From a bacterium D16-56 (GTDB taxonomy: Bacteria > Bacillota > Clostridia > Lachnospirales > Lachnospiraceae), in assembly GCA_003611875.1 (NCBI GenBank), contig RAYY01000003.1, positions 124,001 through 188,000 of the forward strand: 64,000 bases of DNA, given 5' to 3'. Both the position numbers and the translations under genes were made by a program. The notes under the pieces are model-generated. The model was not told the origin of the DNA. It did not search any database and was given only the letters and a program-made list of their open reading frames with translations. Below are positions 14,548 through 58,261 of this stretch, piece by piece. Numbering within the stretch: position 1 is the first letter of the stretch; each line of letters starts with the position of its first letter.

Positions 14548-14673
14548 TTACTATAAAAGCCCCATCGCCGCAGGTGATCTAAAATCAGGACTGCCGAATG
14601 CGCCCGCCAGGCTTTCATAGTTAGTGGCGCGTCCGCCGCCGGGCGCATGGAGGTTTCCTGTGAAAGTCCTGCC
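14548..14673 (+). repeat. Dispersed TTACT-bounded structured repeat, copy A plus the start of a second unit
   Basis: This copy begins TTACTATAAAAG and ends GGAGGTTTCCTG (14660). The next bases (14661-14673, TGAAAGTCCTGCC) look like the start of a further unit. It contains hairpin P2 (ATCGCC / GGTGAT) and the complementary arms ATGCGCCCG and CGGGCGCAT (P3), which flank the P1 3' arm. It lies between the trpS terminator and the ATPase gene and creates a false upstream extension of the ATPase frame. Confidence 0.8.
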
Positions 14674-14698
14674 ATTGAATAGGGAAAGGAGATACGGC

Positions 14699-17356
14699 AT
14701 GAGCGATTGGTATCTGTCTCCAAAAGAAAGTGTATTAGCCCGGCTGCATACATCAGAAAGGGGGTTAACTGCCCACGAAGCAAAGGTAATCCTGGATGAG
14801 ACAGGAGAAAACACCCTGAAGGAACAGATACAGAAAAAAGCATGGCAGGTATTTCTGGAACAATTTCAGGACTTACTGGTAATCATCCTTATGGTTGCCG
14901 CTGTGATCTCCATGATGTCTGACAATGTAGAAAGCACCATTGTCATTTTTGCCGTGATCCTTTTAAACGCAGTGCTGGGAACCACACAGCATCAGAAAGC
15001 CCAGAAATCCCTGCGCAGCCTGAAAGCCTTATCCTCTCCTGCAGCGCGGGTCCTTCGGGACGGGCAGATCATGGAAATCCCCTCTGCCCTGGTAGTTCCC
15101 GGAGACATTCTCTTTTTGGAAGCCGGGGATCTTGTTGTGGCAGACGGAAGGCTTTTAGAATGTCATAATCTGATGGTAAACGAAAGCTCCTTAACCGGAG
15201 AATCCGACAATGTGGAAAAACAATCCGGCGCCTTAAACAGCTCCCCGGTTCCCTTGGCAGAACAGAGCAACATGGTCTTTTCCGGTTCCCTCATCACAGG
15301 AGGACGCGCCAAAGCTGTCGTCACGGCTACCGGCATGGACACGGAAATCGGAAAAATTGCCGCTATGATGAATGCAGCAGAAGAAAAAAAGACACCTTTG
15401 CAGATAAGTTTAGACCAGTTCGGCAGCCGCCTTGCCGCTATGATCATGCTGATCTGTGCATTAGTTTTTATTCTGAGCCTGTACCGGAAAACTTCTATCC
15501 TGGAATCTCTCATGTTTGCTGTTGCCCTGGCAGTAGCCGCAATCCCGGAAGCCCTAGGCTCGATCGTCACCATCGTACAGGCAATGGGGACACAGCGCAT
15601 GGCAAAGGAACACGCCATTATCAAAGATTTAAAGGCTGTGGAAAGTCTGGGCTGTGTATCGGTTATCTGCTCTGACAAAACCGGAACCCTGACCCAGAAC
15701 CGCATGAGCGTTCAGGAGGTGTATGCTGACAGCCGTCTCATGAAGCCCTTTGGCTTAAACCTGTGTCATCCGGTACACCGGTATTTGCTTTATGCCTCTG
15801 TTCTCACCAATGACGCCCAGCCTGCAAAGGCTGCCCCGCCTTCTGCCTTTCCTGCCAACAATTCCGCTTCCTCCTTGCCTGACCACCGGCTGGGGGATCC
15901 CACGGAAACTGCCTTGTTAGAAATGGCTGAAATGGCAAACGCAGATATTTTGCTTCTTCGCAGCCAAATGCCCCGCCTGGAAGAACTTCCTTTTGATTCT
16001 GCCAGAAAACGGATGTGTACCCTGCATCAAATCAATGACAGCTATATCGCATTTGAAAAAGGAGCCCTGGATGTGCTTCTTGACAAAAGCACCCACATCC
16101 TTACTACTGCCGGAATCCGTCTGCTGAACGGCCCCCAAAAGCAGCAGATTCTAGAGCAAAATAAAAAATGGTCAGCCCAGGGACTCCGGGTGCTTGCCAT
16201 GGTATACAAAGAAATACAGAACCAAAACGCATGGGAAGCCCAGGCAGAACAGGACACGGTTTTCCTTGGCATGGCGGCTATGATGGATCCTCCCCGAATC
16301 GAATCCAAAACCGCCGTATTAAATGCCCGCCGTGCCGGTATACGTCCTGTCATGATCACCGGAGACCATAAAATCACTGCCATTGCCATCGCACAAAAAA
16401 TCGGCTTATTCCTTACCGGAGATCTGGCTGTCACAGGGCCTGAACTGGATTCCATGGAGGACTCCTGGCTGCTGCAGAATCTGAGCCGGATATCCGTCTA
16501 TGCCCGTGTCTCCCCGGAACACAAGATTCGTATTGTAAAAGCCTGGCAGTCCCGCGGACACATTGTAGCCATGACCGGAGACGGGGTCAATGACGCCCCT
16601 GCCTTAAAACAAGCAGACATCGGCGTAGCTATGGGTATCTCCGGAACCGAGGTCTCCAAGGACGCTGCCTCCATGATCCTTACAGACGACAATTTTGCCA
16701 CGATTATCAAGGCTGTGGCCAACGGCAGGAATGTATACCGCAATATCCGTCACGCCATCCAGTTCCTGCTTTCCGGCAATATGGCGGGAATCTTCAGTGT
16801 ACTCTATACTTCCCTGCGGGCGCTGCCCATGCCTTTTGCCCCGGTACACCTTCTGTTCATCAATCTGCTGACCGACTCTCTGCCTGCCATTGCCATCGGT
16901 ATGGAGCCACAGGAGGAGGGACTCTTAGACCAGCCGCCCCGCGATCCGAAGGAAGGGATCCTTACCAAACGCTTTCTCTCCCGCATTCTTCTTCAGGGAG
17001 GACTGATTGCTGTCTGCACAATGATTGCCTTCCATTTAGGATTAGAAACCGGCGGCGCCGGAGCTGCCAGTACCATGGCCTTTGCCACCCTGACGTTGGC
17101 CCGCCTGTTCCATGGCTTTAACTGCCGCAGTGAACACTCCATTATCCGTCTGGGCTTTTCCGGCAATCTGTGGAGCGTGATGGCCTTTGAAGCTGGTGCA
17201 GTACTGCTGGCAGCCGTTCTGTTCCTGCCAGGACTTCAGGTCCTTTTTGCCGTGGCAGATTTAAATCCTCATCAGCTTCTTACCATTGTGATCTTTGCCG
17301 TCATCCCCACGGCTGTCATCCAGGCAGCCAAAACACTGCGGGAGGCACTGCAGTAA
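14699..17356 (+). CDS. P2-type cation-transporting ATPase (calcium-ATPase-like)
   Basis: An 885-residue P-type ATPase that would pump a cation, probably Ca2+ or a related divalent ion, across the cytoplasmic membrane. It shows the actuator TGES loop (SLTGESDNVEK), the phosphorylation motif CSDKTGTLTQNRM with catalytic Asp near residue 325, the nucleotide-domain KGA motif and the hinge TGDGVNDAPALKQADIG. The fourth-helix motif is AIPEALGSIVTI rather than the PEGLP of classic Ca2+ pumps, and the sixth helix has NLLTDSLPA. The ATG at 14699 has an AAAGGAG site; the frame is open 25 codons further up, but that part is the repeat. The last codons are CAG TAA, and CAGTAA recurs in the downstream spacer. 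The ion is uncertain. Confidence 0.93.
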   Translation: MSDWYLSPKESVLARLHTSERGLTAHEAKVILDETGENTLKEQIQKKAWQVFLEQFQDLLVIILMVAAVISMMSDNVESTIVIFAVILLNAVLGTTQHQKAQKSLRSLKALSSPAARVLRDGQIMEIPSALVVPGDILFLEAGDLVVADGRLLECHNLMVNESSLTGESDNVEKQSGALNSSPVPLAEQSNMVFSGSLITGGRAKAVVTATGMDTEIGKIAAMMNAAEEKKTPLQISLDQFGSRLAAMIMLICALVFILSLYRKTSILESLMFAVALAVAAIPEALGSIVTIVQAMGTQRMAKEHAIIKDLKAVESLGCVSVICSDKTGTLTQNRMSVQEVYADSRLMKPFGLNLCHPVHRYLLYASVLTNDAQPAKAAPPSAFPANNSASSLPDHRLGDPTETALLEMAEMANADILLLRSQMPRLEELPFDSARKRMCTLHQINDSYIAFEKGALDVLLDKSTHILTTAGIRLLNGPQKQQILEQNKKWSAQGLRVLAMVYKEIQNQNAWEAQAEQDTVFLGMAAMMDPPRIESKTAVLNARRAGIRPVMITGDHKITAIAIAQKIGLFLTGDLAVTGPELDSMEDSWLLQNLSRISVYARVSPEHKIRIVKAWQSRGHIVAMTGDGVNDAPALKQADIGVAMGISGTEVSKDAASMILTDDNFATIIKAVANGRNVYRNIRHAIQFLLSGNMAGIFSVLYTSLRALPMPFAPVHLLFINLLTDSLPAIAIGMEPQEEGLLDQPPRDPKEGILTKRFLSRILLQGGLIAVCTMIAFHLGLETGGAGAASTMAFATLTLARLFHGFNCRSEHSIIRLGFSGNLWSVMAFEAGAVLLAAVLFLPGLQVLFAVADLNPHQLLTIVIFAVIPTAVIQAAKTLREALQ

Positions 17357-17380
17357 AGCGGCAGTAAAAAACAGCCCCTC

Positions 17381-17440
17381 ACAGTAACCCCCTCTCATTC
17401 CTGGTGGTGCGTCCGCCGCTGGGCGCATGGGGGTTACTGT
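17381..17440 (+). repeat. Dispersed repeat, copy B (right half with terminal inverted repeat)
   Basis: The right half of the repeat (GGTGGTGCGTCCGCCGCTGG and onward to TTACT at 17434-17438) is bounded by a perfect 12-bp inverted repeat, ACAGTAACCCCC (17381-17392) and GGGGGTTACTGT (17429-17440). It lies between two convergent genes and its TTA is the stop codon of the minus-strand gene. It could act as a bidirectional terminator, though T-tracts are lacking. Confidence 0.75.
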
Positions 17441-17613
17441 AACTGTAAAATCGTATATTCAAACATCTCATAGCGCAGTCTCATGCCTTCCTCAATATTC
17501 TCAGGAAGCAGGGCACGGGCCACCAGCTTTCTTTCCTGATCCGGCTCATCCGTTCTTCGAAGCTGTGCATAGTCCCCATCAATCTGCTCTATTATGTACT
17601 CAAATGGACCCAT
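17434..17613 (-). CDS. Small DUF3006-like protein
   Basis: A 59-residue protein beginning MGPFEYIIEQIDGDYAQL and containing LLPENIEEGMRLRYE. The pattern of a short beta-rich N-terminus with xxDGDYA and a central LLPxxxxEG step resembles DUF3006 proteins, whose role is unknown. The start ATG overlaps the stop of the ArsC/Spx-like gene (TAATG), a translational-coupling arrangement, so the seven residues before it are not counted. It ends in LQLQ-stop, with the final CAG TAA lying in repeat copy B. It is the last gene of the cupin-arsC-like unit. Confidence 0.65.
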   Translation of the reverse strand: MGPFEYIIEQIDGDYAQLRRTDEPDQERKLVARALLPENIEEGMRLRYEMFEYTILQLQ

Positions 17614-17963
17614 TACAGCAAAGCCTCCTCCCATTCCTTCTCCTTAAAGCCAACCAGCACCACCTTTTCTCCCACAATTATAGGACGTTTTACCAACATC
17701 CCGTCACTTGCCAAAAGCGAGATCTTCTCCTCTGCCGTCATGTCAGCCAGCTTGTCCTTTAACCCTAAATCCTTGTATTTCATACCGCTGGTATTAAAAA
17801 ACCGCTTCATATCCAGCCCGGAGCGCGGAATCCATTTCTCCAGTTCTTCTTTTGTAGGGTTTGCCTCCACAATATGCCGGTCTTCAAACTCAATCTTATG
17901 ACTTTCCAGCCACTTTTTCGCCTTCTTGCAGGTACTGCACTTAGGATATTCAATAAAAAGCAT
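17613..17963 (-). CDS. ArsC/Spx-family thioredoxin-fold protein
   Basis: A 116-residue protein with an N-terminal thioredoxin fold beginning MLFIEYPKCSTCKKAKKWL. The CxxC (Cys-Ser-Thr-Cys) corresponds to the redox switch of Spx/ArsC proteins. FFNTSGMKYKDLGL and MLVKRPIIV are the other conserved ArsC-family blocks. The function may be arsenate reductase-like or Spx-like; the family in Clostridia is usually called Spx/MgsR or ArsC-related and its substrate is not established. ATG at 17961-17963 with an AGGAGGAG site is preferred over an upstream start. It overlaps the next gene by one base (TAATG) and follows the cupin gene. Confidence 0.9.
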   Translation of the reverse strand: MLFIEYPKCSTCKKAKKWLESHKIEFEDRHIVEANPTKEELEKWIPRSGLDMKRFFNTSGMKYKDLGLKDKLADMTAEEKISLLASDGMLVKRPIIVGEKVVLVGFKEKEWEEALL

Positions 17964-17994
17964 TCCTTGCTCCTCCTTTTTCTTAATCATAGTG

Positions 17995-18321
17995 CTATTT
18001 TACAAAATCCTCCCGCATCGGTGTAAAGATATCCAATAACACCGTATCCTCCAACACCACAACCCCATGCTCTGTCCCAGGCTTTACATAATAGGTATCC
18101 CCCGTATGGAGCTCCTTGTCCTCACACCCCTCCTCCTGATAAATCAGGCTTCCTGACACAATGTACCCAATCTGCTCATGAGGATGGGAATGCTTTGCCC
18201 CCACTGCCCCTTTTGGAAAATGCAGTTCCACGGTCATCAGATTTTGGCTGTAAGACAAGATCTTCCTTGTCACCCCACCCTCCAGGTTCCGGGGTGCAAT
18301 GGTACTATTTTCCGTATACAT
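17995..18321 (-). CDS. Cupin-domain protein
   Basis: A 108-residue single-domain cupin. The first metal-binding motif is GAKHSHPHEQIGYIVSG (residues 36-52) and the second is PGTEHGVVVLED (about 81-92), so all His/Glu ligands of a metal-binding cupin_2 barrel are present. The role cannot be told from the fold, as such proteins range from sugar isomerases to dioxygenases and sensors. It heads a three-gene minus-strand unit (cupin, ArsC-like, DUF3006-like). The tandem repeat pair lies in its upstream region. Confidence 0.9.
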   Translation of the reverse strand: MYTENSTIAPRNLEGGVTRKILSYSQNLMTVELHFPKGAVGAKHSHPHEQIGYIVSGSLIYQEEGCEDKELHTGDTYYVKPGTEHGVVVLEDTVLLDIFTPMREDFVK

Positions 18322-18440
18322 TATTCGAATCCTCCTTAACTTTATTTCTGTTCTTCTGCTTTTTACATCTTACCCCATTCTCCCTAAAAACACAATGCAT
18401 ATTCTGCCCTTTTTCCATTTCCTTTCCTGCATCCAAACGA

Positions 18441-18550
18441 TTACTATGAAAGTCCCGCCGCCGATTAGGCGGCATTAATTCAGGGATGCCAAATGCACCC
18501 GCCGGACTTTCATGGGACAATGGTGTGTCCGCTGCCGGGCGCATGAAGGT
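18441..18550 (+). repeat. Dispersed repeat, copy C1 (first unit of a 110-bp tandem pair)
   Basis: The best-preserved unit. P1 ATGAAAGTCC (18446-18455) pairs with GGACTTTCAT (18504-18513). P2 is the hairpin GCCGCC-GATTA-GGCGGC (18457-18473). P3 ATGCACCCG (18493-18501) pairs with CGGGCGCAT (18536-18544) with one mismatch. P4 is GGACA / TGTCC (18515-18530). P1 and P3 interleave, giving a pseudoknot topology if single-stranded. Confidence 0.85.
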
Positions 18551-18665
18551 TTACTACGGAAGTCCCGACGCCGATTAGGCGGCATTAATTCAGGGATGCC
18601 AAATGCACCCGCCGGACTTTCATGGGACGGTGGTGTGTCCGCTGCCGGGCGCATGAAGGTTTACT
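18551..18665 (+). repeat. Dispersed repeat, copy C2 (second tandem unit)
   Basis: A second 110-bp unit starting TTACTACGGAAGTCCC, nearly identical to C1, followed by the closing TTACT (18661-18665). The TTA of that TTACT is the stop codon of the minus-strand gene at 18661. The few differences lie mostly in P1 (ATGAAAG to ACGGAAG) and the P4 loop. Confidence 0.85.
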
Positions 18666-19728
18666 GCTTTTTCCCCTTCCTCCCATAAGGCCAAAAACCC
18701 CGGATCATCCACAGCGCCGCAAGAATCATAAGCCCGGCAAAAAACAGAACTGCTCCAATTCCAACAGTCAGCAAAAGGGTCTGGGTAATCCTCTCCCACA
18801 GCCTGGCAAGAGCCGGAAACGCCGCAGCGGCAGAAGGTGTATCCTCTATCTGAGCTGCCGCGTCCTCCTCCCTTGTTTCCTCTGTCTCCTCCTCAATACG
18901 TTCCTCCTCTCCCGCTTTGTAAACTGCAGATGTTCTCCATGCCTCATATGCCGGAAATTCAGCCATTCCTTCATATACCAACCGATAATCCCGAACCAGC
19001 TTTTTCCCAAAGGCCGCCGCATCCCGGCAAAGCTCTCCTGCTTCATCCTCATACGGCTCCCCATCCCATCGGACCTCTGTCACCTGATACTCTTTCGGCG
19101 ATACTCCGATCTCCTCCAGCAAAAGCTCCTCACATCCATCCAACTGGGGCTTCTCCTCATTTCCATAAATCATACGGTCTCCCAGCCGGTAGACCCCAGC
19201 GTCATATCGATGGAATGTCACCGGAAAAGAAAAATCCTCCTGCCATTCTTCCCTTACGGATGTCTTTTCCTTCAAATAACAGGACACTTCCGCCTTCTGC
19301 TTTCCTTCCCAGGCTGTCACCATAATGCTTTCCGGAATCAGGGAAATCCCCTCCATGGGGCCGCAAACCCCTTCTGTCTTCACCATACGCCTCTGAGCCG
19401 GAACCTGAATACACTCAATCTCCCAGGACAGCAGAGGATATTCCGCTCCATCTTCTGCCACATGCACATTCCCTGGCTCGGGACAATCCTCCTTGCTTTG
19501 ATAAACCTCAGACAATACCACGATTCTGTCTCCCTGTCCTTCTGATACTGCACCATTTTGTTCTTGTGCATATACCTCCATATTTCCCACCACGGTCATT
19601 TGAATCAGAATCACGCCAACCCACAAAACCATCTGGAGCAAACGTGCCTTTTTTCTCATTCCATCGTCTCTGGTATCTTCCTCTGACCGCAGGGTTCCTT
19701 TTCTGACTGCCTTTTTACCTTTTTTCAA
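18661..19728 (-). CDS. Unknown membrane-anchored extracytoplasmic protein
   Basis: I do not recognise this family. The 355-residue protein has a basic N-terminus, a hydrophobic signal/anchor (about residues 30-52), an extracytoplasmic region with acidic, beta-rich character and several Cys, a Glu/Thr-rich spacer (about 275-300), and a C-terminal membrane helix (about 320-345) followed by the basic tail RKGKKQ. This gives a protein anchored at both ends with its middle outside. The start is TTG at 19726-19728, supported by an AAGGAGG site 9 nt upstream; MRKKARLL further in is an alternative. The last codon and stop (CAG TAA) come from repeat C2. It has its own promoter with two direct repeats in the leader. 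Confidence 0.75.
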   Translation of the reverse strand: MKKGKKAVRKGTLRSEEDTRDDGMRKKARLLQMVLWVGVILIQMTVVGNMEVYAQEQNGAVSEGQGDRIVVLSEVYQSKEDCPEPGNVHVAEDGAEYPLLSWEIECIQVPAQRRMVKTEGVCGPMEGISLIPESIMVTAWEGKQKAEVSCYLKEKTSVREEWQEDFSFPVTFHRYDAGVYRLGDRMIYGNEEKPQLDGCEELLLEEIGVSPKEYQVTEVRWDGEPYEDEAGELCRDAAAFGKKLVRDYRLVYEGMAEFPAYEAWRTSAVYKAGEEERIEEETEETREEDAAAQIEDTPSAAAAFPALARLWERITQTLLLTVGIGAVLFFAGLMILAALWMIRGFWPYGRKGKKQ

Positions 19729-19788
19729 ATAAAAATCCTCCTTTTCCGCTGCATTTTTTTAAGCTCTTTAACCAACATGGGATAACCA

Positions 19789-19834
19789 GCCAAGAACTGA
19801 CCAGCCTCTCAGAACCTTGCCAAGAACTGACAAG
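19789..19834 (-). promoter_or_regulatory. Two direct repeats in the leader of the unknown membrane-protein gene
   Basis: GCCAAGAACTGACCAG (19789-19804) and GCCAAGAACTGACAAG (19819-19834) are 30 bp apart, about three helical turns, between the promoter and the start codon. They could be repressor operators or RNA sites; no regulator is known. Confidence 0.4.
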
Positions 19835-19847
19835 ATTTGTTATTTTT

Positions 19848-19876
19848 ATTATACAAAAAGGAGCCTGAAATTTCAA
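19848..19876 (-). promoter_or_regulatory. Promoter of the unknown membrane-protein gene
   Basis: TTGAAA (19871-19876) and TATAAT (19848-19853) are 17 nt apart on the minus strand, a near-consensus sigma-A promoter. The -35 overlaps the end of the HD gene. Confidence 0.7.
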
Positions 19877-20415
19877 GCCCCGAAAACAAACTGATACAAA
19901 TCTTTATATTCCTGATAAGCCGGATATTCTGACAAATCCTCCAATCCATCCAGAATCCCCTTGGCATACCACTTATGAAGCTCCTTTCGCCTCTCATTAA
20001 AACGTACCCAGATCTCATCTCCCATTACCATATAGTCCCGGGCCGTAGCACGTATATTGCTCAGCTTGTCCGCCAGGGTCAAAAGCTTTACCTCCAAGGA
20101 TGCATGCTCCAGATGCCGGATCGTCTGACCCTTCCGCTCCTTCCAGGTCAGCGACTTGTCCTCTGTCTCTGCCTGCACCAATGCCAATACCCTGCTTCCA
20201 AAGATCTGTCCCAATTCCTCTGCAGTCACCGGCGTATCCTCCAACACATCATGCAGATAAGCCGCAGCAATCACCTCTGCATCCTGCGTCATCCGGGACA
20301 CCAGCAGCGCCACCTCCATCGGATGATAAATATAAGGCATACTGCCGCCCTTCCGTACCATCCCCTCATGAGCTTTTATGGCAAACCTTGCCGCTTTTTG
20401 TATCATATTTTTCAT
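19873..20415 (-). CDS. HD-domain hydrolase, (p)ppGpp hydrolase-like
   Basis: A 180-residue HD-superfamily protein resembling the hydrolase half of RelA/SpoT and the small Mesh1-type (p)ppGpp hydrolases. Metal-site motifs are in order: His in YIYHPMEVA (about 29-37), the HD pair in AAYLHDVLEDT (about 51-61) and the later Asp in TLADKLSNIRA (about 112-122). There is no synthetase domain, so hydrolysis of (p)ppGpp or a related nucleotide is the likely role; the substrate is inferred. ATG 20415 is followed three codons later by another ATG (20406) with better spacing to AAAGGGGA, so the true start may be the second. A terminator separates it from the PrcB-like gene upstream. Confidence 0.88.
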   Translation of the reverse strand: MKNMIQKAARFAIKAHEGMVRKGGSMPYIYHPMEVALLVSRMTQDAEVIAAAYLHDVLEDTPVTAEELGQIFGSRVLALVQAETEDKSLTWKERKGQTIRHLEHASLEVKLLTLADKLSNIRATARDYMVMGDEIWVRFNERRKELHKWYAKGILDGLEDLSEYPAYQEYKDLYQFVFGA

Positions 20416-20492
20416 TCCCCTTTATATTCTGAAAAAACACTCTGCCAGGTATCCTTCCAGATACTTTGTAAACCTTCCATCCTGCACCCTAT

Positions 20493-20520
20493 AAAAAAAG
20501 GCAGACAACAATCTGCCTTC
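20493..20520 (-). terminator. Terminator between the PrcB-like and HD genes
   Basis: On the minus strand GGCAGA / TCTGCC closes a short loop and is followed by TTTTTTT. It lies about 200 nt after the PrcB-like stop codon, so repeat D falls in that gene's 3' untranslated region. Confidence 0.75.
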
Positions 20521-20572
20521 TGTCTTTTATTATATCATATCTGTTTCCTTCTGAAAAGAGCTGCCGGAAAAT

Positions 20573-20725
20573 TTACTATAAAAGTCCCAAATTATGCCCG
20601 CTTTTGGCATTTTGGCGCGTCATACGGTCAGCGCAGCCAGTGCGTAGACCTACAGCAAGAATTCGGGACTTTCACACTACCCCCTTTTATTCATGGTGTT
20701 GCCTCTGCGGGCCATGGGGATTACT
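20573..20725 (+). repeat. Dispersed repeat, copy D (diverged, 153 bp)
   Basis: It starts TTACTATAAAAGTCCC and ends GGGGATTACT. AAAGTCCC (5' side) can pair with GGGACTTT (near 20665-20672), as in P1 of the family. The middle is unlike the other copies and GC-rich. The closing TTA (20721-20723) is the stop codon of the PrcB-like gene. Confidence 0.6.
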
Positions 20726-21152
20726 GAAAAATCACCGGATTTTCCAGACTCTCTGTCTGCACTACAAGATAAGGGTATGATTTTTCCACTCCCACAGTCT
20801 CTCCCTTTTCCGGCCCTAAAAGCTCAGTATCAATCACAATGGAATTTTCTGTCAAATACAATTCATTGACAGAAATACTGTATCCGCCTGTAGGCTGCTC
20901 CCCGTATCCTACTGCTATGTAAAGTCCCTGATCATTACTGTAAGTCAGCTTAAAGGGAGCCGCCTTTTTTTCTTCCACCAGACTTTTCAGCTCCTCCGGC
21001 AGATCTGCCTCTCCCACTACGGTTGACTCTAAATCCCGCACCTTATCCTGATTTTCCTTCTCAACACTGCATCCGGTCAAATATCTTACCATCATCACCC
21101 AGCACAGCAAAAAAACCACCCATACCATCTTTCCGCTTATCCGTTTGCCCAT
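20721..21152 (-). CDS. PrcB_C-domain lipoprotein
   Basis: A 143-residue protein with an N-terminal hydrophobic signal and a lipobox-like VRYLTGC, so probably lipid-anchored outside the membrane. The C-terminal half reads GLYIAVGYGEQPTGGYSISV and later PYLVVQTESLENPVIF, which matches the PrcB_C (protease complex subunit PrcB) domain pattern of a GxxxTGGY turn followed by a PxxVV strand. Function in Firmicutes is unknown. ATG at 21150-21152 is chosen because GGAGG lies 5 nt upstream; the ATG 12 nt earlier overlaps that site. The stop codon lies in repeat copy D. Confidence 0.75.
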   Translation of the reverse strand: MGKRISGKMVWVVFLLCWVMMVRYLTGCSVEKENQDKVRDLESTVVGEADLPEELKSLVEEKKAAPFKLTYSNDQGLYIAVGYGEQPTGGYSISVNELYLTENSIVIDTELLGPEKGETVGVEKSYPYLVVQTESLENPVIFQ

Positions 21153-21324
21153 AACAACCTCCATAAAATTTGACTACTACTAATCTATTCCCTAAAGATT
21201 GTACCTATTCCCCAAAATGAAAATTTACGAAAATAAAGTTACTGCAAAATTTCTTTCCCTGTTCTTGTCAAAACCCATCCAATGCCATAAAATATAGGAA
21301 AACACCGAAAGGACAAGCCCTCCC

Positions 21325-22329: not shown

Positions 22330-22400
22330 GCTTTTCCACAGGCAAGACCTGTCTCCGTATCACCCTACAGCATAAAAACGTCGTAAGGAAAGGAAAAACA

Positions 22401-23786: not shown

Positions 23787-23809
23787 CGGGAAATCGCCAA
23801 ATATTTTCC

Positions 23810-23850
23810 GATTCAAAAGAGCCACTCACCCGGAATGGCTCTTTTGAATC
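23810..23850. terminator. Bidirectional terminator between convergent ALDH and spoIIID
   Basis: A 15-bp stem (GATTCAAAAGAGCCA / TGGCTCTTTTGAATC) sits between the two convergent stop codons. U-rich stretches occur within the stem on both strands (CTTTTGAATCCTTCT). Confidence 0.8.
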
Positions 23851-23859
23851 CTTCTGATA

Positions 23860-24135
23860 TTAATCCTCCTCTTTACTGCAGATCGCCAGACGGTGCTGAT
23901 ACTTTTCCCGCGTAGCCAGCCCGCCGCGAATATGCCGCTCCGACTTGTTTACATCCAGCACCACCCGCGCCTGAGCCGCCAGGGAAGGATTAATATGCTC
24001 CAGTCTGTCTGTCACATCTTTATGTACCGTACTCTTGCTTATTCCAAACCGTTTTGCCGTCTGCCGCACCGTTGCATTATGGTCTATGATGTAATTGGCG
24101 ATTGCCACCGCCCGTTCTTCGATATAATCCTTCAT
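23860..24135 (-). CDS. spoIIID: Sporulation transcription factor SpoIIID
   Basis: SpoIIID is the mother-cell DNA-binding regulator acting between sigma-E and sigma-K. The 91-residue product is of family length and carries the conserved helix-turn-helix VRQTAKRFGISKSTVHKDVT (residues 23-42) and the basic C-terminal segment HIRGGLATREKY. It is monocistronic between a convergent terminator and a 196-bp upstream region. I could not assign its sigma-E promoter with confidence. With spo0A it shows that the organism carries sporulation control genes. Confidence 0.97.
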   Translation of the reverse strand: MKDYIEERAVAIANYIIDHNATVRQTAKRFGISKSTVHKDVTDRLEHINPSLAAQARVVLDVNKSERHIRGGLATREKYQHRLAICSKEED

Positions 24136-24331
24136 GGTTTTACCCTTGAGAATGTTTTTTACATCTTATGCAGCCATGATTTTCATTATGAATGGAATGC
24201 AAAATACTAATTCCGGCCTGCAATGCGAAAATTTTCCATCCTCCCTTTATTTTTCCTGCAAAACGTCGATATAGTTAATAAATGGTATTCCCATAATTTT
24301 ATTTTATCACTTCAAAAAGGAGGACTTATTT

Positions 24332-24952: not shown

Positions 24953-24988
24953 ATTTTCATATCAGCCCTATATGCTGTAATCTTTAAG

Positions 24989-25036: not shown

Positions 25037-25070
25037 ATGCTACAATAAGAAAAACAGGAGGAACTTGTTA

Positions 25071-33160: not shown

Positions 33161-33234
33161 TTACGAAAAATACAAGCCCCGCCATGCTTTCATGATTGAT
33201 AGTGCATACGCAGCCGGGGGCATGGAGGTTTACT
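33161..33234 (+). repeat. Dispersed repeat, copy E (internally shortened)
   Basis: It starts TTACGAAAAATAC and ends GGAGGTTTACT; hairpin P2 and the P1 5' arm are missing. P3 arms read AAGCCCCG and CGGGGGC: the C-G pair at one position replaces the G-C pair of other copies, a compensatory change. It lies between asrC and the hemC fusion. Confidence 0.7.
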
Positions 33235-46344: not shown

Positions 46345-46412
46345 ATCTGTTCTCCCTTTCGTTGATTCTTGTCGTTCTATATCATTTCTATTTGTTAAAG
46401 AACACCATTATC

Positions 46413-48658: not shown

Positions 48659-48685
48659 TGATTTTTCCTCCTCATATAATAACTG

Positions 48686-50434: not shown

Positions 50435-50469
50435 TATAAAAGCTCCTTTTCTTTTACTTTAAAAAACTT

Positions 50470-52131
50470 TTAATTTCCTTTCAGCACTGCGCCTTTCTCT
50501 GCACTGGTTACTTGTTCAGCATACCGCTTGAGATAACCTGTAACCTCTTTTTTCTTGGGAGTCCAGGCTTCACGGCGTTTTGCCAGCTCCTCATCCGATA
50601 CCTTTACATTGATCGTATTGGCATTAATATCAATGGAAATAATATCCCCTTCCTTTACCAGGCCAATGGGACCTCCCGCAGCCGCCTCCGGACATACATG
50701 GCCAATGGAGGCGCCGCGGGACGCGCCGCTGAAACGCCCGTCCGTGATCAGAGCCACAGAAGCCCCCAGTCCCATTCCTGCAATCGCAGAGGTGGGATTA
50801 AGCATTTCTCTCATGCCTGGTCCGCCCTTTGGCCCCTCATAGCGAATCACCACCACATCACCTGCCACGATCCTGCCGCCCATGATAGCTGCAATAGCAT
50901 CCTCCTCACCGTCAAACACTCTGGCCGGCCCTTCATGGCAAAGCATCTCCGGCACTACGGCCGAACGCTTCACCACACAGGAATCCGGCGCCAAGTTGCC
51001 CCGCAGCACTGCAATTCCTCCGGTAGCTGAATAAGGATTCTCCACCGTGCGGATCACCTGAGGATTCTTATTCTCGCAGCCCTTTATATTCTCACCTACC
51101 GTCTTTCCGGTGACTGTCATACAATCCAGATTCAGAAGTCCCAGCTTACTAATCTCATTCATCACGGCATACACGCCGCCAGCCTCATTTAAATCTTCCA
51201 TATAAGTAGGTCCGGCAGGCGCTAAGTGGCACAGATTGGGAGTCTTTGCACTGATCTCATTGGCAATATCCACATTCAGCTCCACTCCGGCCTCATGAGC
51301 AATGGCAGGCAGATGCAGCATGCTGTTAGTGCTGCAGCCTAATGCCATATCCATGGTCAGAGCATTTCTAAAGGCTGCCTCTGTCATAATATCCTTTGGA
51401 CAGACATTCTTCTCCACCATATCCATCACTGCCATACCGGCATGCTTGGCCAGGCGGATTCTCTCGGAATAGACTGCAGGAATGGTTCCGTTGCCCTTAA
51501 GCCCCATGCCCAGCACCTCTGTCAGGCAATTCATACTGTTGGCCGTGTACATGCCAGAGCAAGAGCCGCAGGTAGGACATACCTTATTGGCAAAATCCTC
51601 CACATCCTCCTCTGTCATGGTTCCTGCCGCATAGGCACCCACTGCCTCAAACATACTGGAAAGGCTCTTCTTCTCGCCCTTCACACGTCCTGCCAGCATA
51701 GGACCTCCGCTGACAAATACCGTGGGAATATTCAAACGGGCCGCTGCCATCAAAAGCCCCGGCACATTCTTGTCACAGTTTGGAACCATCACCAGCCCGT
51801 CAAACTGATGGGCCAGAGCCATACATTCCGTAGAGTCGGCAATCAGATCTCTTGTCACCAGAGAATACTTCATCCCCATATGTCCCATGGCAATGCCGTC
51901 GCAGACCGCAATGGCCGGGAACACAATAGGCGTTCCTCCTGCCATTGCCACACCCTGCTTGACTGCCTCTACAATCTTATCCAGGTTCATATGTCCTGGA
52001 ACAATCTCATTATAAGAGCTGACCACCCCGATCAGCGGCCTTGCCAGCTCCTCCTCCGTATAACCCAAGGCCCGGAACAAAGATCTTGCCGGAGCCTGCT
52101 GTATTCCTGATTTTGCATTATCACTTCTCAT
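50470..52131 (-). CDS. ilvD: Dihydroxy-acid dehydratase
   Basis: Dehydrates 2,3-dihydroxy acids to 2-oxo acids for valine, isoleucine and leucine. The 553-residue protein carries the Fe-S cluster Cys residues in [10 protein letters not shown] and [18 protein letters not shown], and the late [20 protein letters not shown] block, all family hallmarks. It sits between leuB (81-nt gap) and ilvB (35-nt gap) and has an AAAAGGAGA ribosome site. Confidence 0.97.
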
Positions 52132-52211
52132 GGTTCCATTCTCCTTTTGCTTGTCTTTATATACAATCCATTTTCTAATTCTTTCTTCTTCTGGCTAAAG
52201 AACCGTTCCTA

Positions 52212-53300
52212 TTATAAATAAATCTGTGCTGCAATCAAATCTCCCATTTTCGCAGTTCCCACCTTTTTACAGCCCTCTGCCATAATATCAGATGTTCGCC
52301 ATCCCTCTGTAAGCACTCTCTGTACCGCCACCTCAATCGCCTCGGCCTCCATATCCAGGTCAAACGAATACCGAAGCATCATAGCCGCAGACAAAATCGT
52401 TGCAATCGGATTGGCAATATCCTTGCCCGCTATGTCCGGTGCAGAACCATGGCTGGGTTCATACATCCCGAATTTTCCTTCGTTCAGGCTGGCAGACGAC
52501 AGCATTCCTATGGAGCCTGTAATCATACTGGCTTCGTCTGACAAAATATCCCCAAACATATTCTCTGTCAGAACCACGTCAAACTGTCCCGGATTCATCA
52601 CAAGCTGCATGGCGCAATTATCCACCAGCATGTGTTCCAGCTTCACGTCCGGATAATCCTCTGCCACCTGCTCCACCACCTTGCGCCACAGCCTTGAGGA
52701 ATCCAGCACATTTGCCTTGTCCACACTGATCACATGGTTTCTCCGCTTTCTGGCAATATCAAAAGCCTTCACCGCAATGCGCCGTATCTCGTTTTCATTA
52801 TATGTAAGGGTATCTGTAGCCTGCAGCACACCGTCTACCTCCTTGGTATGCCGCTCTCCAAAATAAAGCCCCCCTGTCAGCTCCCGCATGATCACCAGAT
52901 CAAATCCATCACCGATAATCTCTTTTTTCAGCGGGCAGGCATCTGCCAATTCATGATACAGATAAGCCGGCCGAATGTTGGCAAACAGATTCAATCCCTT
53001 ACGGATAGCCAAAAGTCCTGCCTCCGGCCTTAAATCCGGCGCTGCGTCATACCAGCGGGAATTGCCTACATTTCCTCCCACTGCACCCAAAAGAACCGCA
53101 TCGCTCTGCCTGGCTGTCTCCAGGGCTTCCTTTGTCAGCGGAACTCCATGGGCATCAATAGAACAGCCCCCCATCAGCACCTCTGTATAATGAAACGAAT
53201 GGCCATATACCTGCGCCACCTTATCCAATACCTTGCATGCCTCCCGGACGATCTCCGGTCCGATCCCGTCCCCCGGGATGGTCACTATCCTGCAATCCAT
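52212..53300 (-). CDS. leuB: 3-isopropylmalate dehydrogenase
   Basis: Oxidative decarboxylation in leucine synthesis. The 362-residue protein begins [18 protein letters not shown] and has [10 protein letters not shown] (about residues 65-74), [13 protein letters not shown]-like [14 protein letters not shown] and the metal-binding [14 protein letters not shown] (about 240-253). ATG at 53298-53300 is chosen by the family start and AGGTGG spacing. It is the first gene of the leuB-ilvD-ilvB-serC-serA-DUF1015 block; leuA and leuCD are not in the window. A promoter about 220 nt upstream leaves a long leader. Confidence 0.96.
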
Positions 53301-53553
53301 CGTCTGCCACCTCTTTTTTCTTCTCAAATTTCTGCGTTTCCTATCATCTTATCGCATTTGCTTTCATTTTTCAACATTTGAATGGGATTTTATTTAGAAA
53401 ATATATACGAGAATGGAATTAAATGTATAACTCACGGTTATTTCCGGCAATGCCGTTCATTTTTCGTTCACAGATCATTCAAAAACCTTTTACACAAACA
53501 TCATGATTTCTTCATGTTTTCTCTTTATACTATGTCTTGTAAGCAACCATCAA
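53301..53553 (-). promoter_or_regulatory. Promoter and long leader of the leuB operon
   Basis: TTGATG (53548-53553) and TATAAA (53524-53529) are 18 nt apart on the minus strand. About 215 nt of AT-rich leader follow. No T-box (no AGGGTGG-ACCGCG) and no leader peptide rich in Leu/Val/Ile was found; the only clear stem is the small palindrome CGGCATTGCCG. CodY-like or other control is possible but unproven. Confidence 0.5.
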
Positions 53554-53655
53554 TGCCGTATATGTGATATGCTTATAAGATTTTTTTCATAATACTCGAG
53601 CTGATATAGAATTATCAGCTCTCCTCCCTTTTTAACCTCTTATAAAACTGTAGTA

Positions 53656-53687
53656 GAAAAACCCCCTTCACACGAAGGGGTTTTTTC
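53656..53687 (-). terminator. Terminator of the CaCA antiporter gene
   Basis: AAAAACCCCCTTC / GAAGGGGTTTTTT stem with a 5-nt loop, 7 nt after the stop codon; A/T-tracts on both sides. Confidence 0.9.
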
Positions 53688-53693
53688 TATGGA

Positions 53694-54617
53694 CTATCGA
53701 ATACAGATATATACCAGATAACCTGCATACATTCCCAGCATAATCAATCCCTCCAAACGGCTCAGCCGTTCTCTGCTCCGGCACAAAATCAATGTAACCA
53801 GGCTGAACACCACCAGACACACGGCATCAATTACTGCAAAGGAATTAACCGGTATCGGCTTCACTGCCGCTGACACAGCCAGAACCATCATAATATTGAA
53901 TATATTGGAGCCGATCACATTGCCCAGCGCCAAACCGTTCTCTCCCTTTCGGGACGCCACCATGGAAGTCACCAGCTCCGGAAGAGAGGTTCCCAGCGCC
54001 ACCACGGTAAGTCCTACTAATGTCTGGCTCAGCCCAAAGGCCAATGCGATCTGGCTGGCACAATCCACCACCAAATCACCGCCCCATACAATGGCAGCCA
54101 AACCGCCGGCAATGTAGAGGAAACAGCGAACCGGCGGCAAAGTCTCCTGAACCTCCTCCGCCTGAACCCGATTGATCAGCGCATCCCGCACAGTTAAGGT
54201 CATAAACGCCGCAAACAGCCCCAAAAGAATAAATGCCTCTGTCCGGCTTAAAAACTGATCCCAAAAAATCATAGCAAGCAAAAGCACCCCTGCCAGTATG
54301 GAAGCCGCAAAATCCCAGCGAAGACGGACCTTAAAGGTACGGATTGCGCCGCAGGCTCCTAATACCACCAGAAGATTAAAAATATTAGAGCCGATCACAT
54401 TGCCCACTGCAATCTCATTGCTGCCTGCCAGAGAAGCGGTGGTGCTGACCGCCAGCTCCGGCGCACTGGTACCAAACGCAACGATTGTCAGACCGATAAT
54501 AATACTGGGTACTCTAAGCATTCTGGCCACCGATGAACTGGCCTCCACGAAAAAATCCGCGCCTTTAATCAAAAGCACAAAGCCCACCAGCAGCATTACA
54601 TACACCATCATGTTCAT
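53694..54617 (-). CDS. CaCA-family cation exchanger (YrbG-like), probably a manganese or calcium exporter
   Basis: A 307-residue membrane antiporter with about 10 hydrophobic helices and the two alpha-repeats of the CaCA family: VAFGTSAPELAVSTTASL with GNVIGSNIFNLLVV, and VALGTSLPELVTSMVAS with GNVIGSNIFNIMMV. Family members exchange Ca2+ (or other divalents) for Na+ or H+. ATG at 54615-54617 with a GAGGG site is chosen. An upstream open extension lies in the riboswitch terminator and is not coding. Control by a yybP-ykoY riboswitch suggests that manganese is the physiological signal and maybe the substrate, which is inference. Confidence 0.93.
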   Translation of the reverse strand: MNMMVYVMLLVGFVLLIKGADFFVEASSSVARMLRVPSIIIGLTIVAFGTSAPELAVSTTASLAGSNEIAVGNVIGSNIFNLLVVLGACGAIRTFKVRLRWDFAASILAGVLLLAMIFWDQFLSRTEAFILLGLFAAFMTLTVRDALINRVQAEEVQETLPPVRCFLYIAGGLAAIVWGGDLVVDCASQIALAFGLSQTLVGLTVVALGTSLPELVTSMVASRKGENGLALGNVIGSNIFNIMMVLAVSAAVKPIPVNSFAVIDAVCLVVFSLVTLILCRSRERLSRLEGLIMLGMYAGYLVYICIR

Positions 54618-54676
54618 CCCTTTTCCCTCTTTCTTCTTTTCCTTTGATTGCTGTCCCGAAAAATCCCTGCGGCTAC

Positions 54677-54725
54677 AAAAAAAACGAGGCTTTTGCTGCA
54701 TCACAAGGATACAACAAAAGTCTCG
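54677..54725 (-). terminator. Riboswitch-controlled terminator
   Basis: CGAGACTTTTGTTGT pairs with GCAGCAAAAGCCTCG (with G-U pairs), followed by TTTTTTTT. Its 5' arm contains the GAGACTTTT that also closes the aptamer, so the two folds exclude each other. Confidence 0.88.
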
Positions 54726-54886
54726 CTTATTATATGCGTACCGGGCTACTCTTACTCAATCATACCGCCAAGCCTCCTGCCTGCCGGCTTCCCTTTATAA
54801 GCAGCTCACCGTGATGACGATATCGCATAACACCTTAGGAACGGTAAATCCCGCCTTACAAGGTGCAAGCTACTCCCTTTCATTAA
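54717..54886 (-). ncRNA. yybP-ykoY (manganese) riboswitch aptamer
   Basis: The minus-strand leader begins GAAAGGGAGTAGCTTGC and ends AAGCGAGACTTTTG. GGGAGTAGC and the closing GAGAC are the conserved loop elements of the yybP-ykoY family, and GAAAG pairs with CTTTT to close P1. Manganese binding should stabilise P1, free the terminator's 3' arm and allow expression of the exporter. Confidence 0.85.
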
Positions 54887-54890
54887 TTTC

Positions 54891-54919
54891 AGTATATTCA
54901 CTTTTTGTGCGCTTGTCAA
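54891..54919 (-). promoter_or_regulatory. Promoter of the riboswitch-antiporter transcript
   Basis: TTGACA (54914-54919) and TATACT (54891-54896) are 17 nt apart on the minus strand; transcription would start at about 54884, at the aptamer's 5' edge. Confidence 0.8.
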
Positions 54920-55015
54920 GGCGAAATTTGCCTATTTGATGTTTCGGTAAATTTGGTAATAGTTTTACCGCACCTCCACATAAAATGAGAGTAAAAGCTC
55001 TCAGGTAGACTCAAA

Positions 55016-56413
55016 ATGAAAGCTGCAGCAGAAACACTTCATTTTCTTATATGGGGACCTTGGACTCTGGTACTGTTTTTAGGAACAGGGCTTTGGTTCA
55101 CCATTGGATCTGGTTTTTTTCAATTTTTCGGCATAAAAAAATGGTGGAATGAAACGGCAGGCAGTCTTTTGCAGGCAAAAAAGTCAGATAAAAATACAAA
55201 ACAAAAAATCACCCGCTTTCAGTCAGCCTGCACGGCGCTTGCTGCCACCATTGGCACCGGAAATATTGTGGGCGTGGCCACGGCCCTGACTGCCGGCGGC
55301 CCCGGGGCACTGTTTTGGATGTGGATCTCTGCTGCAATCGGCATGATGACTGCCTACAGCGAAACCTTCCTGGGACAAATATACCGTTATCGCAGGGAGG
55401 ATGGGGAATGGATGTGCGGGCCTATGGTATATATGGACCGGGGACTGCAGTGCCCTGCTCTGGGAACCCTGTATGCGTTATTTGCCGTCCTTTCCTCACT
55501 TGGTATGGGAAGCATGGTACAGTCTAACTCGATCAGCGAAACCCTGCACTTCGGCGCAGACCTGCCATATTGGATCAGCGGTCTTTTTGTAACAGCTCTG
55601 ACCGCATTGGTCATTGCTGGAGGAATACAGCGAATTTCCAAGGTATCCGAAAAGCTGATGCCGGTCTCCGCAGGAATCTATATAGTATTTTCCCTGATTG
55701 TAATTCTCTCCTGCCTGGATATTCTGCCGGCAGTATTTGGAATGATATTCCGAGATGCCTTTCGTCCCCAGTCGGTAAGCGGCGGAATTTCCGGCTTTCT
55801 TTTGAGCCGCAGTGTCCGGTATGGCTTGTCCCGCGGTGTTTTTTCCAATGAAGCCGGTCTTGGCAGCCTGGCTGTGCTTCATGGAGCTGCGGAAGACACC
55901 ACTCCCCAGCAGCAGGGTATGTGGGCCATGTTTGAAGTGTTTTTTGATACGATTGTAATCTGCACCCTGACTGCACTGGTCATTCTCTGTGTAAAATACA
56001 AAAGCCCAGTCAATCCGGAAGTCTTTGCAGGGCTGGAAGGAGCTGCTCTGACAGCCTGCTGCTTTTCTGCCCGTCTGGGAATCCTTGGAGAGGGATTGGT
56101 ATCCGCATCCATGGCAGTATTCGCCTTTGCCACAATCATTGCCTGGTATTATCTTGGAAAACAGACCTTCCATTATCTTGTAAAGCGTCCGGGCATCCAA
56201 ATGTACATGGCTCTTTCTGAAAAAGCAGAAAGCAGACTGTACCTGATACTCTATCTTCTGGCAGTATTATGGGGCAGCGTCTGCCGTCTGGAGATCGTTT
56301 GGCTGATTTCTGACTTATGGAACGGACTAATGGCCTACCCCAACATCCTAACCATATTATGGCTGAGCCGAAAAATCAAATTCCCCAGCCGCGTCAAATT
56401 TTCCGCACCATAA
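55016..56413 (+). CDS. Sodium:alanine symporter family (AGCS) carrier
   Basis: A 465-residue amino acid:sodium symporter. The family signature lies in TALAATIGTGNIVGVATALTAGGPG (residues about 74-98, seen as ATIGTGNIVGVATAL and GGPGALFWMW), with the late YGLSRGVFSNEAGLGS block near 270. About 10-11 membrane helices. The substrate is likely alanine or glycine but cannot be fixed. It is divergent from the riboswitch-controlled antiporter and followed 76 nt later by the phospholipase-like gene. Confidence 0.93.
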   Translation: MKAAAETLHFLIWGPWTLVLFLGTGLWFTIGSGFFQFFGIKKWWNETAGSLLQAKKSDKNTKQKITRFQSACTALAATIGTGNIVGVATALTAGGPGALFWMWISAAIGMMTAYSETFLGQIYRYRREDGEWMCGPMVYMDRGLQCPALGTLYALFAVLSSLGMGSMVQSNSISETLHFGADLPYWISGLFVTALTALVIAGGIQRISKVSEKLMPVSAGIYIVFSLIVILSCLDILPAVFGMIFRDAFRPQSVSGGISGFLLSRSVRYGLSRGVFSNEAGLGSLAVLHGAAEDTTPQQQGMWAMFEVFFDTIVICTLTALVILCVKYKSPVNPEVFAGLEGAALTACCFSARLGILGEGLVSASMAVFAFATIIAWYYLGKQTFHYLVKRPGIQMYMALSEKAESRLYLILYLLAVLWGSVCRLEIVWLISDLWNGLMAYPNILTILWLSRKIKFPSRVKFSAP

Positions 56414-56489
56414 AAACCTGCTCTCGCATTTTTTCTTTATATGTGGTATGATAAAACTATCAAAATGAAGAAAGAAGAGAGATCTTACC

Positions 56490-57470
56490 ATGCCAGGCTT
56501 TACTACCCATTATATTCTTGGAATGAAGGCATTTAACGACATGCCTAACAACCAGTTAAAATACATGATCGCCAAATACCGCTGGCTCTATCAGCTAGGA
56601 CTTCAGGGACCGGATATCTTTTTCTATAACATCCCGATTCTGCGTCATCGGGACTACCGCAATGTAGGCTCTTATATGCATGAGCATCACATCCAGGACT
56701 TTTTTTCCTGTTATTTGGAAGCCTTGGGAGACATTCCCTCCAAACAGCAGCGGGCTGAGGGCCTTGCCTATTTCTGCGGCTATCTCTGCCACTATATAGG
56801 CGACTCCATCTGTCATCCCTATGTATACGGAAGAATCGGCTACGACGCAAAAGCGCCCACTGCCCAGGCCCATGGTATGCATGCAGCATTAGAAAATGAT
56901 ATAGATGCACTGCTTCTGTTAAAGTATAAAAAGAAAAAACCATCCCAATTTAATCAGGCCGCCACCATATGCCTTAATGGAATGGAAATTCAGTTCATCT
57001 CTCGATTTTTGTCAAAATGTATCAACAAAACCTACTATCCGATCACCTGTCACAACAATTTTCAGGTGACTCCACAAATGGTTCATCGTTCCATTCTCGC
57101 CATTCGGTTTGGATGCCGTACCCTGGCAGACCCATCCGGAAGAAAGCGGAACAGCATTGCTTTTGTAGAGAACCTCCTTTTGCGGAATCCTCTGGCCTCC
57201 ACCAAGCTGGTTACGGACCAGGTTTCTAACCCTCGTGGGTGTCTGAACCTGGATCATGAAACATGGTGTAATCCCTGGGACCGGCGTCTTGCCTCCAAAG
57301 CATCCTTTCCGGAGCTGTTCCGCCAGTCTCTTTTAAAATGTTCCAATGTCTATGCGATCCTGAACACAGCCATTGATCATGCCCAGATCTCTCAGGAACA
57401 TGATATTACCCGGCTGTTGGACGAGCTGGGCTGCTACTCCTATCACAGCGGGCTGGCTGTCACAGATTAA
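56490..57470 (+). CDS. Zinc-dependent phospholipase C-like protein
   Basis: A 326-residue protein of the zinc-dependent phospholipase C/S1-P1 nuclease-like family. Conserved His/Asp positions appear as PGFTTHYILGMKAF at the N-terminus, LGLQGPDIFFY (about 42-52), then CGYLCHYIGDSICHPYVYGR (about 107-126) and the AHGMHAALENDID block (about 136-148). There is no signal peptide, so it is probably cytosolic, unlike secreted toxins of this fold; the substrate is unknown. It ends convergent to an XRE regulator. Confidence 0.88.
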   Translation: MPGFTTHYILGMKAFNDMPNNQLKYMIAKYRWLYQLGLQGPDIFFYNIPILRHRDYRNVGSYMHEHHIQDFFSCYLEALGDIPSKQQRAEGLAYFCGYLCHYIGDSICHPYVYGRIGYDAKAPTAQAHGMHAALENDIDALLLLKYKKKKPSQFNQAATICLNGMEIQFISRFLSKCINKTYYPITCHNNFQVTPQMVHRSILAIRFGCRTLADPSGRKRNSIAFVENLLLRNPLASTKLVTDQVSNPRGCLNLDHETWCNPWDRRLASKASFPELFRQSLLKCSNVYAILNTAIDHAQISQEHDITRLLDELGCYSYHSGLAVTD

Positions 57471-57567
57471 ACAGATCATCCGACTTGCACCCATACAAGC
57501 TTGGACAAATTCTCGAATAGACAGCAAATGTTATCTGCTTCGGGATTTATCCGGTGGAGTATAACAA

Positions 57568-57599
57568 TACAGTATGGCTGCCAAAGCAGCCATACTGTA
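57568..57599. terminator. Hairpin between convergent phospholipase-like and XRE genes
   Basis: ACAGTATGGCTG / CAGCCATACTGT-type perfect stem (12-13 bp) with a 5-nt loop. T-tracts are poor on both strands. Confidence 0.65.
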
Positions 57600-57629
57600 A
57601 CTGTAAAAAGTAAAAAAGCGGCATTCCCA

Positions 57630-57977
57630 TCAGAGATATCGCTTGAGCTCTGCTAAAATCTGCCATAGCTCTTGCCTCTTTGTCTGGTCCATCCGCTCCC
57701 AATTATCCATAATTGATGCAACATCTTCATTCACTGTCTCTTGTGGCGCTTCCGTTATTTCTTCTTGATTTTCCAACGTATCTCCTGCAGAATATCCCAG
57801 CACATAGTCTGTCGATACACGAAAATAGTCAGCCAGGGTAATTAACACATCAACCTGTATCTTACTTCTGTCTCGTTCCATCCGGCTGATGGCCTGTTGG
57901 GAAAGCCCAATCTGCTCACCTAATATTTTCTGTGAAATATTCCGCTGCTTCCGAAGTTGTTTGATATTACTCCTCAT
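57630..57977 (-). CDS. XRE-family transcriptional regulator
   Basis: A 115-residue regulator. The N-terminal helix-turn-helix (residues 1-62) has QKILGEQIGLSQQAISRMER and ends DYVLGYSAG, the typical Cro/CI layout. The C-terminal part (about 70-115) is acidic and helical and has no clear effector motif. It is monocistronic. Targets are unknown; an imperfect palindrome (CACTTATATGTG) in its upstream region is a possible own operator. Confidence 0.9.
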   Translation of the reverse strand: MRSNIKQLRKQRNISQKILGEQIGLSQQAISRMERDRSKIQVDVLITLADYFRVSTDYVLGYSAGDTLENQEEITEAPQETVNEDVASIMDNWERMDQTKRQELWQILAELKRYL

Positions 57978-58149
57978 AACCGTAAATTCCCTCCATTTAT
58001 TTTCATTTTAACAAACATAACGAAGAAAACCACTTATATGTGAAGTTTATTTACCCATTTTATTAGTTTTTATAACTACTCTGCGGCGTTTTATCTTCAG
58101 GATATTTTATCGTCCGACAACAAATTTCCCTGCTAAAGATTCCTGATTT

Positions 58150-58261
58150 TTACTTTGAACGTTCCATCGCCGGAGGCGATTTAAAATCAGGTATTTCAAA
58201 TGCGCCCGCCAAGCTTTCATGATTGGTGATACGTTCGCTGCCGGGCGCATGGAGGTTTACT
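58150..58261 (+). repeat. Dispersed repeat, copy F
   Basis: It runs from TTACTTTGAACG to GGAGGTTTACT. Hairpin P2 is perfect (ATCGCC-GGA-GGCGAT), and P3 arms are perfect (ATGCGCCCG / CGGGCGCAT). P1 has decayed. It lies 3' of the MBL-fold gene, past its terminator, 40 kb from the main cluster. Confidence 0.8.

Follow-up and report, generated by a model that had tools for sequence, protein, structure and literature searches.

The window examined in this study, a stretch of 64,000 nucleotides from the genome of the Lachnospiraceae bacterium D16-56 (contig RAYY01000003.1; G000:C135:124001-188000 of the 5.54 Mb, 202-contig genome that we call G000), harbors members of a dispersed repeat family bounded by TTACT, and this family is real and larger than first listed. 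We judge it probable, at roughly 0.55, that the repeat, about 107-110 bases long, moves as a non-autonomous element of single-stranded DNA, which would be a relative of the ends of IS200/IS605, similar to repetitive extragenic palindromes (REPs) and miniature inverted-repeat transposable elements (MITEs), and would be moved in trans by a Y1 transposase. The empty sites found in a sister species, the arrays of the repeat and its TTACT ends argue for mobile DNA and against an RNA with a regulatory role, and the repeat is too short to hold a transposase gene.

Evidence of mobility came from the comparison with the sister genome G023, which is about 80% identical to G000 and of which 1.2 Mb was compared. 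All 14 sites of G000 that were anchored on both sides in G023 lacked a copy there, no copy was present at the places homologous to the window copies starting at 14548, 18551 and 58150, and a search of these 14 gaps at E<=1 returned a single 25-base fragment (E 0.92). The alignment of the place homologous to 20573 also showed no copy. The right junctions were readable in G023 at four sites, three of them reading TTAC (TTACTTTGC, GGTTACTGG and TTTTACAC at loci L044, L060 and L119, respectively) and one reading TCAC (TCACTTCAC, locus L038), and at L119 the base following the right TTAC is that of the host. Besides, the highest identity between dispersed copies reaches 98.2%, which together with the absence of copies from the sites compared in G023 suggests activity after the two species split. 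It is therefore very unlikely that the repeat ceased to move after an ancient spread and that its remains are merely rearranged by slippage and recombination, even though such a relic would agree with the occurrence of copies truncated on either side and of partial units within arrays, with array neighbors being somewhat more alike than random copies (mean identity 0.855 vs 0.797) and with no partner enzyme being linked to the repeat. As a separate observation, a stretch of about 3 kb carrying a copy (L124, 3512-3622, and its counterpart L100) is 99.8% identical in G000 and G023, compared with about 80% elsewhere, and may represent a recent transfer or a binning error or contamination.

The copies in the window were scored by profile search, with 20 shuffled windows as control, which combined yielded one match at E<=0.01. 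A sequence-only reading of this DNA had listed seven copies of about 110 bp; full-length copies were recovered at four of these places, whereas those listed at 17381 and 33161 retain the right part only and that at 20573 is a composite. The copies, and the parts of the one at 18441, are as follows:

14548..14659, + strand: full-length copy with ATCGCC-type P2 and right end TTCCT (profile E 1e-29 or better)
17383..17438, + strand: right-half variant, palindrome AGTAACCCCC...GGGGGTTACT (profile match 17392-17436, E 5e-7)
18441..18555, + strand: full-length copy with GCCGCC-type P2, first of a head-to-tail pair with one TTACT in common (E 1e-29 or better)
18447..18512, + strand: P1, arms 18447-18454 and 18505-18512
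18449..18452, + strand: candidate left guide AAAG, directly 5' of the TCCC/GGGA stem, with TTAC at 18441-18444; putative role by analogy with IS608
18457..18473, + strand: P2 hairpin, arms 18457-18462 and 18468-18473, occurring in two sequence types
18493..18544, + strand: P3, arms 18493-18501 and 18536-18544, interleaved with P1; in a competing hairpin its 3' arm pairs with 18523-18531
18551..18665, + strand: full-length copy, second of the head-to-tail pair (E 1e-29 or better)
20573..20725, + strand: composite of 153 bases, in which P1-like arms enclose a different repeat family and a right-end variant follows
33178..33234, + strand: right half, left part absent (profile E 2e-11)
58150..58261, + strand: full-length copy with ATCGCC-type P2 (profile E 1e-29 or better)

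Genome-wide, 1793 candidates were obtained for a covariance model built from 59 copies (R1), and the 150 of them that were scored yielded 131 matches at E<=0.1. The weakest matches are fragments or doubtful, so that the genome holds roughly a hundred copies or more, and a BLAST search with the 18441 copy gave 62 matches in its own genome at E<=1. The structural analyses relied on alignment A1 (65 copies reduced to 59) and on a wider set from this and related genomes, in which 281 profile matches included 221 full-length copies, 211 of them unique and 209 retained by length; 104 single non-redundant copies drawn from the 221 were used to analyze the ends.

The ends of the repeat are direct (TTACTNTGAAAG and NAGGTTTACT), with no terminal inverted repeats, and each base of TTACT is 78-97% conserved at both of them, in agreement with the previously proposed boundaries. 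Across the 209 copies, TTAC was found at the left end of 169, at the right end of 148 and at both ends of 127. In 167 of them, moreover, AAAG or AAAA immediately precedes the TCCC/GGGA stem on which P2 sits (86% paired), GT[AG]G precedes the right hairpin in 139, and the ends of the element read C|T. Direct TTACT ends, no inverted repeats, hairpins near the ends and short tags fit, by analogy, mobility driven by a Y1 HUH enzyme. IS608 inserts 3' of TTAC and carries its left guide AAAG at the base of the left hairpin (PMC5934647). The repeat is reminiscent of IS608 and other IS200/IS605 elements, and of their gene-less derivatives, in its left TTAC, AAAG beside the left hairpin, hairpins near both ends and lack of inverted repeats, as well as in a preferred base after the cut. 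The TnpA-REP enzyme acts next to hairpins that bear a GTAG tag, where it cuts at C|T (PMC8266576), and REPINs are also known in tandem clusters (PMC3116915). With the REP/REPIN systems that have a RAYT, the repeat shares high copy number, a mostly intergenic location, GT[AG]G before a hairpin in 139 of 209 copies, C|T ends and tandem clusters, but it is about 110 bases long and asymmetric, and its units lie head to tail instead of in inverted pairs.

In this model, a TnpA supplied in trans, a Y1 HUH transposase as in IS200/IS605 or REP systems, would bind the folded single strand, cut 3' of TTAC at both ends of the element and join the excised strand 3' of TTAC in new DNA. The choice of the cut would be guided by AAAG on the left, beside its hairpin, and by GT[AG]G beside the hairpin on the right. 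Other forms of transposition fitted less well. Classical DDE MITEs are likewise short, gene-less, dispersed and mostly intergenic, but the absence of inverted ends and the direct TTACT ends rule them out. Retroposition, which would leave 5'-truncated copies only, was rejected, since by eye about nine of the low-scoring copies in this genome lack the left part and about six lack the right part. A variable target duplication was also discarded: the same non-consensus base appeared at both ends in at most seven of the 104 single copies (five at position 3 and two at position 5). In most of these a remnant of another left end follows the right end, and array remnants explain them better than duplication.

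A full copy reads TTACT-N-TGAAAGTCCC, hairpin P2, a linker, ATGCGCCCG (5' arm of P3) and GACTTTCA (3' arm of P1), and continues with GGTGG, a GTGCGTCCG-like stretch, CGGGCGCAT (3' arm of P3), NAGGT and TTACT. Among the 209 copies, the proportion of paired cells was 85% for P1, 97% for P2 and 96% for P3, and it fell to 19-55%, 21-52% and 17-55%, respectively, when the partner was slid by 1-3 columns. These values support the earlier proposal that folding of the single strand matters, and they confirm that P1 and P3 interleave as complementarity. The pseudoknot proposed from that interleaving is possible, but it is not demonstrated, because a simple hairpin between the GTGCGTCCG stretch (columns 82-90) and the 3' arm of P3 offers an alternative (about 84% paired over the 209 copies and 91.5% over the 59). 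This right hairpin is the one taken in the nested fold of the 18441 copy (-53.1 kcal/mol, z -4.4), and the nested folds of the 14548 and 58150 copies are less distinct (z -1.3 and -1.6). A helix order like that of hepatitis delta virus was considered and rejected.

In the interleaved fold, the CTTT of P1 would mask the putative AAAG guide, so that the element could alternate between two states, one locked as a pseudoknot and the other able to be cut. A bolder version of the mobile-element reading extends this idea: the repeat would belong to an orphan class of single-stranded DNA repeats with a pseudoknot spanning the whole body, in which one arm is contested by P3 and the right hairpin while P1 hides AAAG, so that the element switches itself between the locked and the cutting state, spreads head to tail and borrows its enzyme in trans. 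We regard this version as rather doubtful.

The argument from covariation fared less well. P2 does pair despite its changed sequence, as previously noted, with G-C in 32 and A-U in 27 of the 59 copies at one pair and C-G in 31 and U-A in 25 at another; the compensatory change from T to C with A to G reported for P1 exists, but in one of these copies only. The G-C to C-G swap proposed for P3 falls in the composite copy at 20573. With the pseudoknot structure imposed on the 59 copies, 94.5% of the cells were paired against a shuffled mean of 92.3, and 66 cells had changed on both sides against a shuffled mean of 29.4; 52 of the 66 fell in two P2 pairs, and the number of pairs with double changes did not exceed that of the shuffles (six vs 5.4). 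In a tree-based test of our own design, in which substitutions in the 209 copies were re-dealt along a FastTree tree to give 60 null alignments, the null was exceeded only by a block of columns that follow the two P2 types, unpaired column pairs included; the P3 pairs reaching the list did so at E 168-181, and no P1 pair was among the 45 listed. Selection on the fold, insofar as it was deduced from covariation, is thus not established.

The genomic surroundings of the repeat, determined for 96 element matches with a crude caller of open reading frames (ORFs), bear on a different explanation, the one put forward in the sequence-only reading, by which the repeat is a functional folded RNA (a 3' untranslated element, an attenuator or a small RNA) that serves host regulation. 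Intergenic positions account for 73 of the 96 matches, and in 53 of these 73 the right-hand ORF runs towards the element. Moreover, in 13 of the 96 the stop codon of the right-hand ORF, a TAA on the opposite strand, coincides with the TTA of the right-end pentamer, as would be expected if stop codons tolerate insertions. Since the copies are mostly intergenic and their right end is often at a stop codon, they may lie in 3' untranslated regions, as REPs do, and may often be read there on the antisense strand, which together with the conserved complementarity would suit a regulatory RNA. Nevertheless, this explanation is unlikely considering that none of the 14 anchored sites of the sister species has a copy, that the gene arrangements around the 73 intergenic matches are mixed (28, 25, 14 and 6 in the four arrangements), that no Rfam family corresponds to the repeat and that covariation in P1 and P3 does not exceed the tree-based null. 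Searches with the Rfam covariance models gave no match at gathering score in the whole window, none at E<=10 for one copy pair in locus L003, and, for positions 14500-20800 at E<=5, one weak match to BTnc005 (E 0.3, far below the gathering score) that overlaps 20573. The literature searches made turned up no description of this repeat and, like those of Rfam, no family with this layout.

Several observations weigh against movement of the repeat by a Y1 enzyme as proposed above. At the empty sites of G023, four of the five readable left junctions carry TTAT or TTAA (14548, 20573, L056 and L049) and one carries TTAC (L055), which does not fit a strict TTAC target, although a divergence of 20% blurs single bases. 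Only four bases separate TTAC from AAAG in the repeat, a spacing unlike that of IS608, and its right end is also TTAC, unlike the right end of IS608, which is TCAA (PMC5934647). The likeness to the AAAG-stem arrangement could be chance, as the pair 14/45 of the TCCC/GGGA stem is only 55% paired among the 209 copies, and an AAAG-like right guide is weak (AAAT in 108 and AAGT in 34 of them, 142 together). Unlike IS200/IS605 elements, the repeat has neither tnpA nor tnpB, no partner gene is linked to it and no lagging-strand bias was seen: an apparent replication-strand bias (44 of 65 copies) disappeared against the TTACT background (clusters 47:34 vs background 123:102, P 0.70).

The searches for a partner enzyme, which covered TnpA (Y1) and TnpB only, add to these reservations. 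When ten translated frames from Y1 loci of the genus (one of them, L247, probably not TnpA) were compared with the collected loci by tblastn, matches were restricted to L064 and L106, which hold the same gene, and L336. Among the element loci covered, the only Y1 gene was a truncated one near an array. Y1 searches of four genomes that carry the repeat (G016, G158, G140 and G271, the last two 84% complete) found nothing at E<=0.01, and the 52 tnpA/tnpB loci scanned, L064 included, do not have the ends of the element as their own. Two significant element matches were nonetheless present within those 52 loci, one about 0.2 kb after a tnpB ORF (L380) and the other about 1.4 kb from a tnpA ORF (L368). 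G000 itself contains one truncated tnpA and a weak fragment; the truncated match, from which the start of the profile is absent, is the only Y1 match of the genome above the cut-off, and the array at L106 lies 2.3 kb from it. No RAYT gene was found beside the repeat among the element loci searched by tblastn. Independently of the element loci, a TnpB-like ORF of 437 amino acids (L381, 406-1719; G000:C122 near 42847) is the only match of the genome to the TnpB family, lies on a different contig from the Y1 matches and is possibly a TnpB that lost its transposon.

The carriers G158, G016, G140 and G271 with no Y1 match, as well as the head-to-tail arrays, are compatible with a mobile element that inserts at TTAC(T) by another mechanism, such as rolling-circle transposition (IS91-like), an IS110-like or bridge-RNA-like system or another recombinase. 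Additionally, at least five of the six left-end letters follow the right end in 19 of the 104 single copies, a pattern that the insertion of multiple units would leave, compared with 78 of 1044 TTACT sites in loci of this genome, a background that includes left ends of the element. The target, in contrast, is conserved over about five bases only, shorter than the targets of bridge-RNA elements, and TTAC differs from the IS91 target, and we hold a mechanism of this kind to be conceivable but clearly less probable than Y1-mediated movement.

Within the arrays, units lie head to tail and adjacent units have one TTACT in common, as in the window. Different P2 types were observed in nine of 22 neighboring array pairs; the same type was thus shared by 13 of 22, compared with 50% of random pairs, and this nearly random pairing argues for separate insertions. 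Four head-to-tail copies, three of them of equal score, occupy L106 3451-3882 (G000:C146:43150-43581), and in two copies from relatives (L158 near 6610 and L164 near 2654) the part comprising the 3' arm of P1 and GGTGG is duplicated internally.

Beyond this genome the repeat is patchy across genera. An exact right-end pattern matched 85 stretches in 84,980 genomes, and the matches listed (80 of the 85) carry titles naming Hungatella, Enterocloster, [Clostridium] citroniae, Lachnospiraceae, Clostridia or Clostridiaceae. The covariance model matched at least nine of 60 relatives besides the genome of origin (E<=0.001) and at least eight of 249 family genomes (E<=1e-6, scoring no more than 15 candidates in each), and the small number of candidates scored makes both counts lower bounds. 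BLAST of one copy against phage and plasmid records gave no match, nor did one exact right-end pattern among the viral contigs of IMG/VR.

REP-like repeats are best studied in Proteobacteria and are often accompanied by a RAYT gene. If our interpretation is true, REP-like elements would extend to major gut bacteria in the form of a high-copy, TTACT-bounded and asymmetric family in Lachnospiraceae, whose fold would offer a test case for how the structure of an element controls single-strand transposition. The carriers with no Y1 match also raise the question of what moves repeats that lack a transposase. A precedent for orphan families is provided by the CGTC-tagged REPs, palindromic repeats that seemingly have no dedicated transposase (PMC3733652); they differ from the present repeat in being simple palindromes of 20-40 bases found mostly in Alphaproteobacteria.

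Among the incomplete copies of the window, the palindromic right half at 17383..17438 is the sole clear copy of its kind among the loci of this genome that were examined. The 20573 place gave only a weak profile match (20655-20717, E 0.23) because the 153-base composite holds another repeat inside. This second family, TGCCCGCTTTTGGCATTTTGG...ATACGGTCAGCGCAGCC, occupies positions 20606-20680; the whole composite used as a query returned 24 genome matches including itself, most of them limited to the inner repeat, and similar sequence adjoins the copies at L125 and L132. The 14548 copy is followed by letters resembling another left end, at about 14655-14683 (E 5.2, weak), and is closely preceded, at 14490-14537, by an inverted repeat GGACTTTTCATACA...TGTATGAAAAGTCC followed by T, which resembles an intrinsic terminator and has a similar counterpart in G023.

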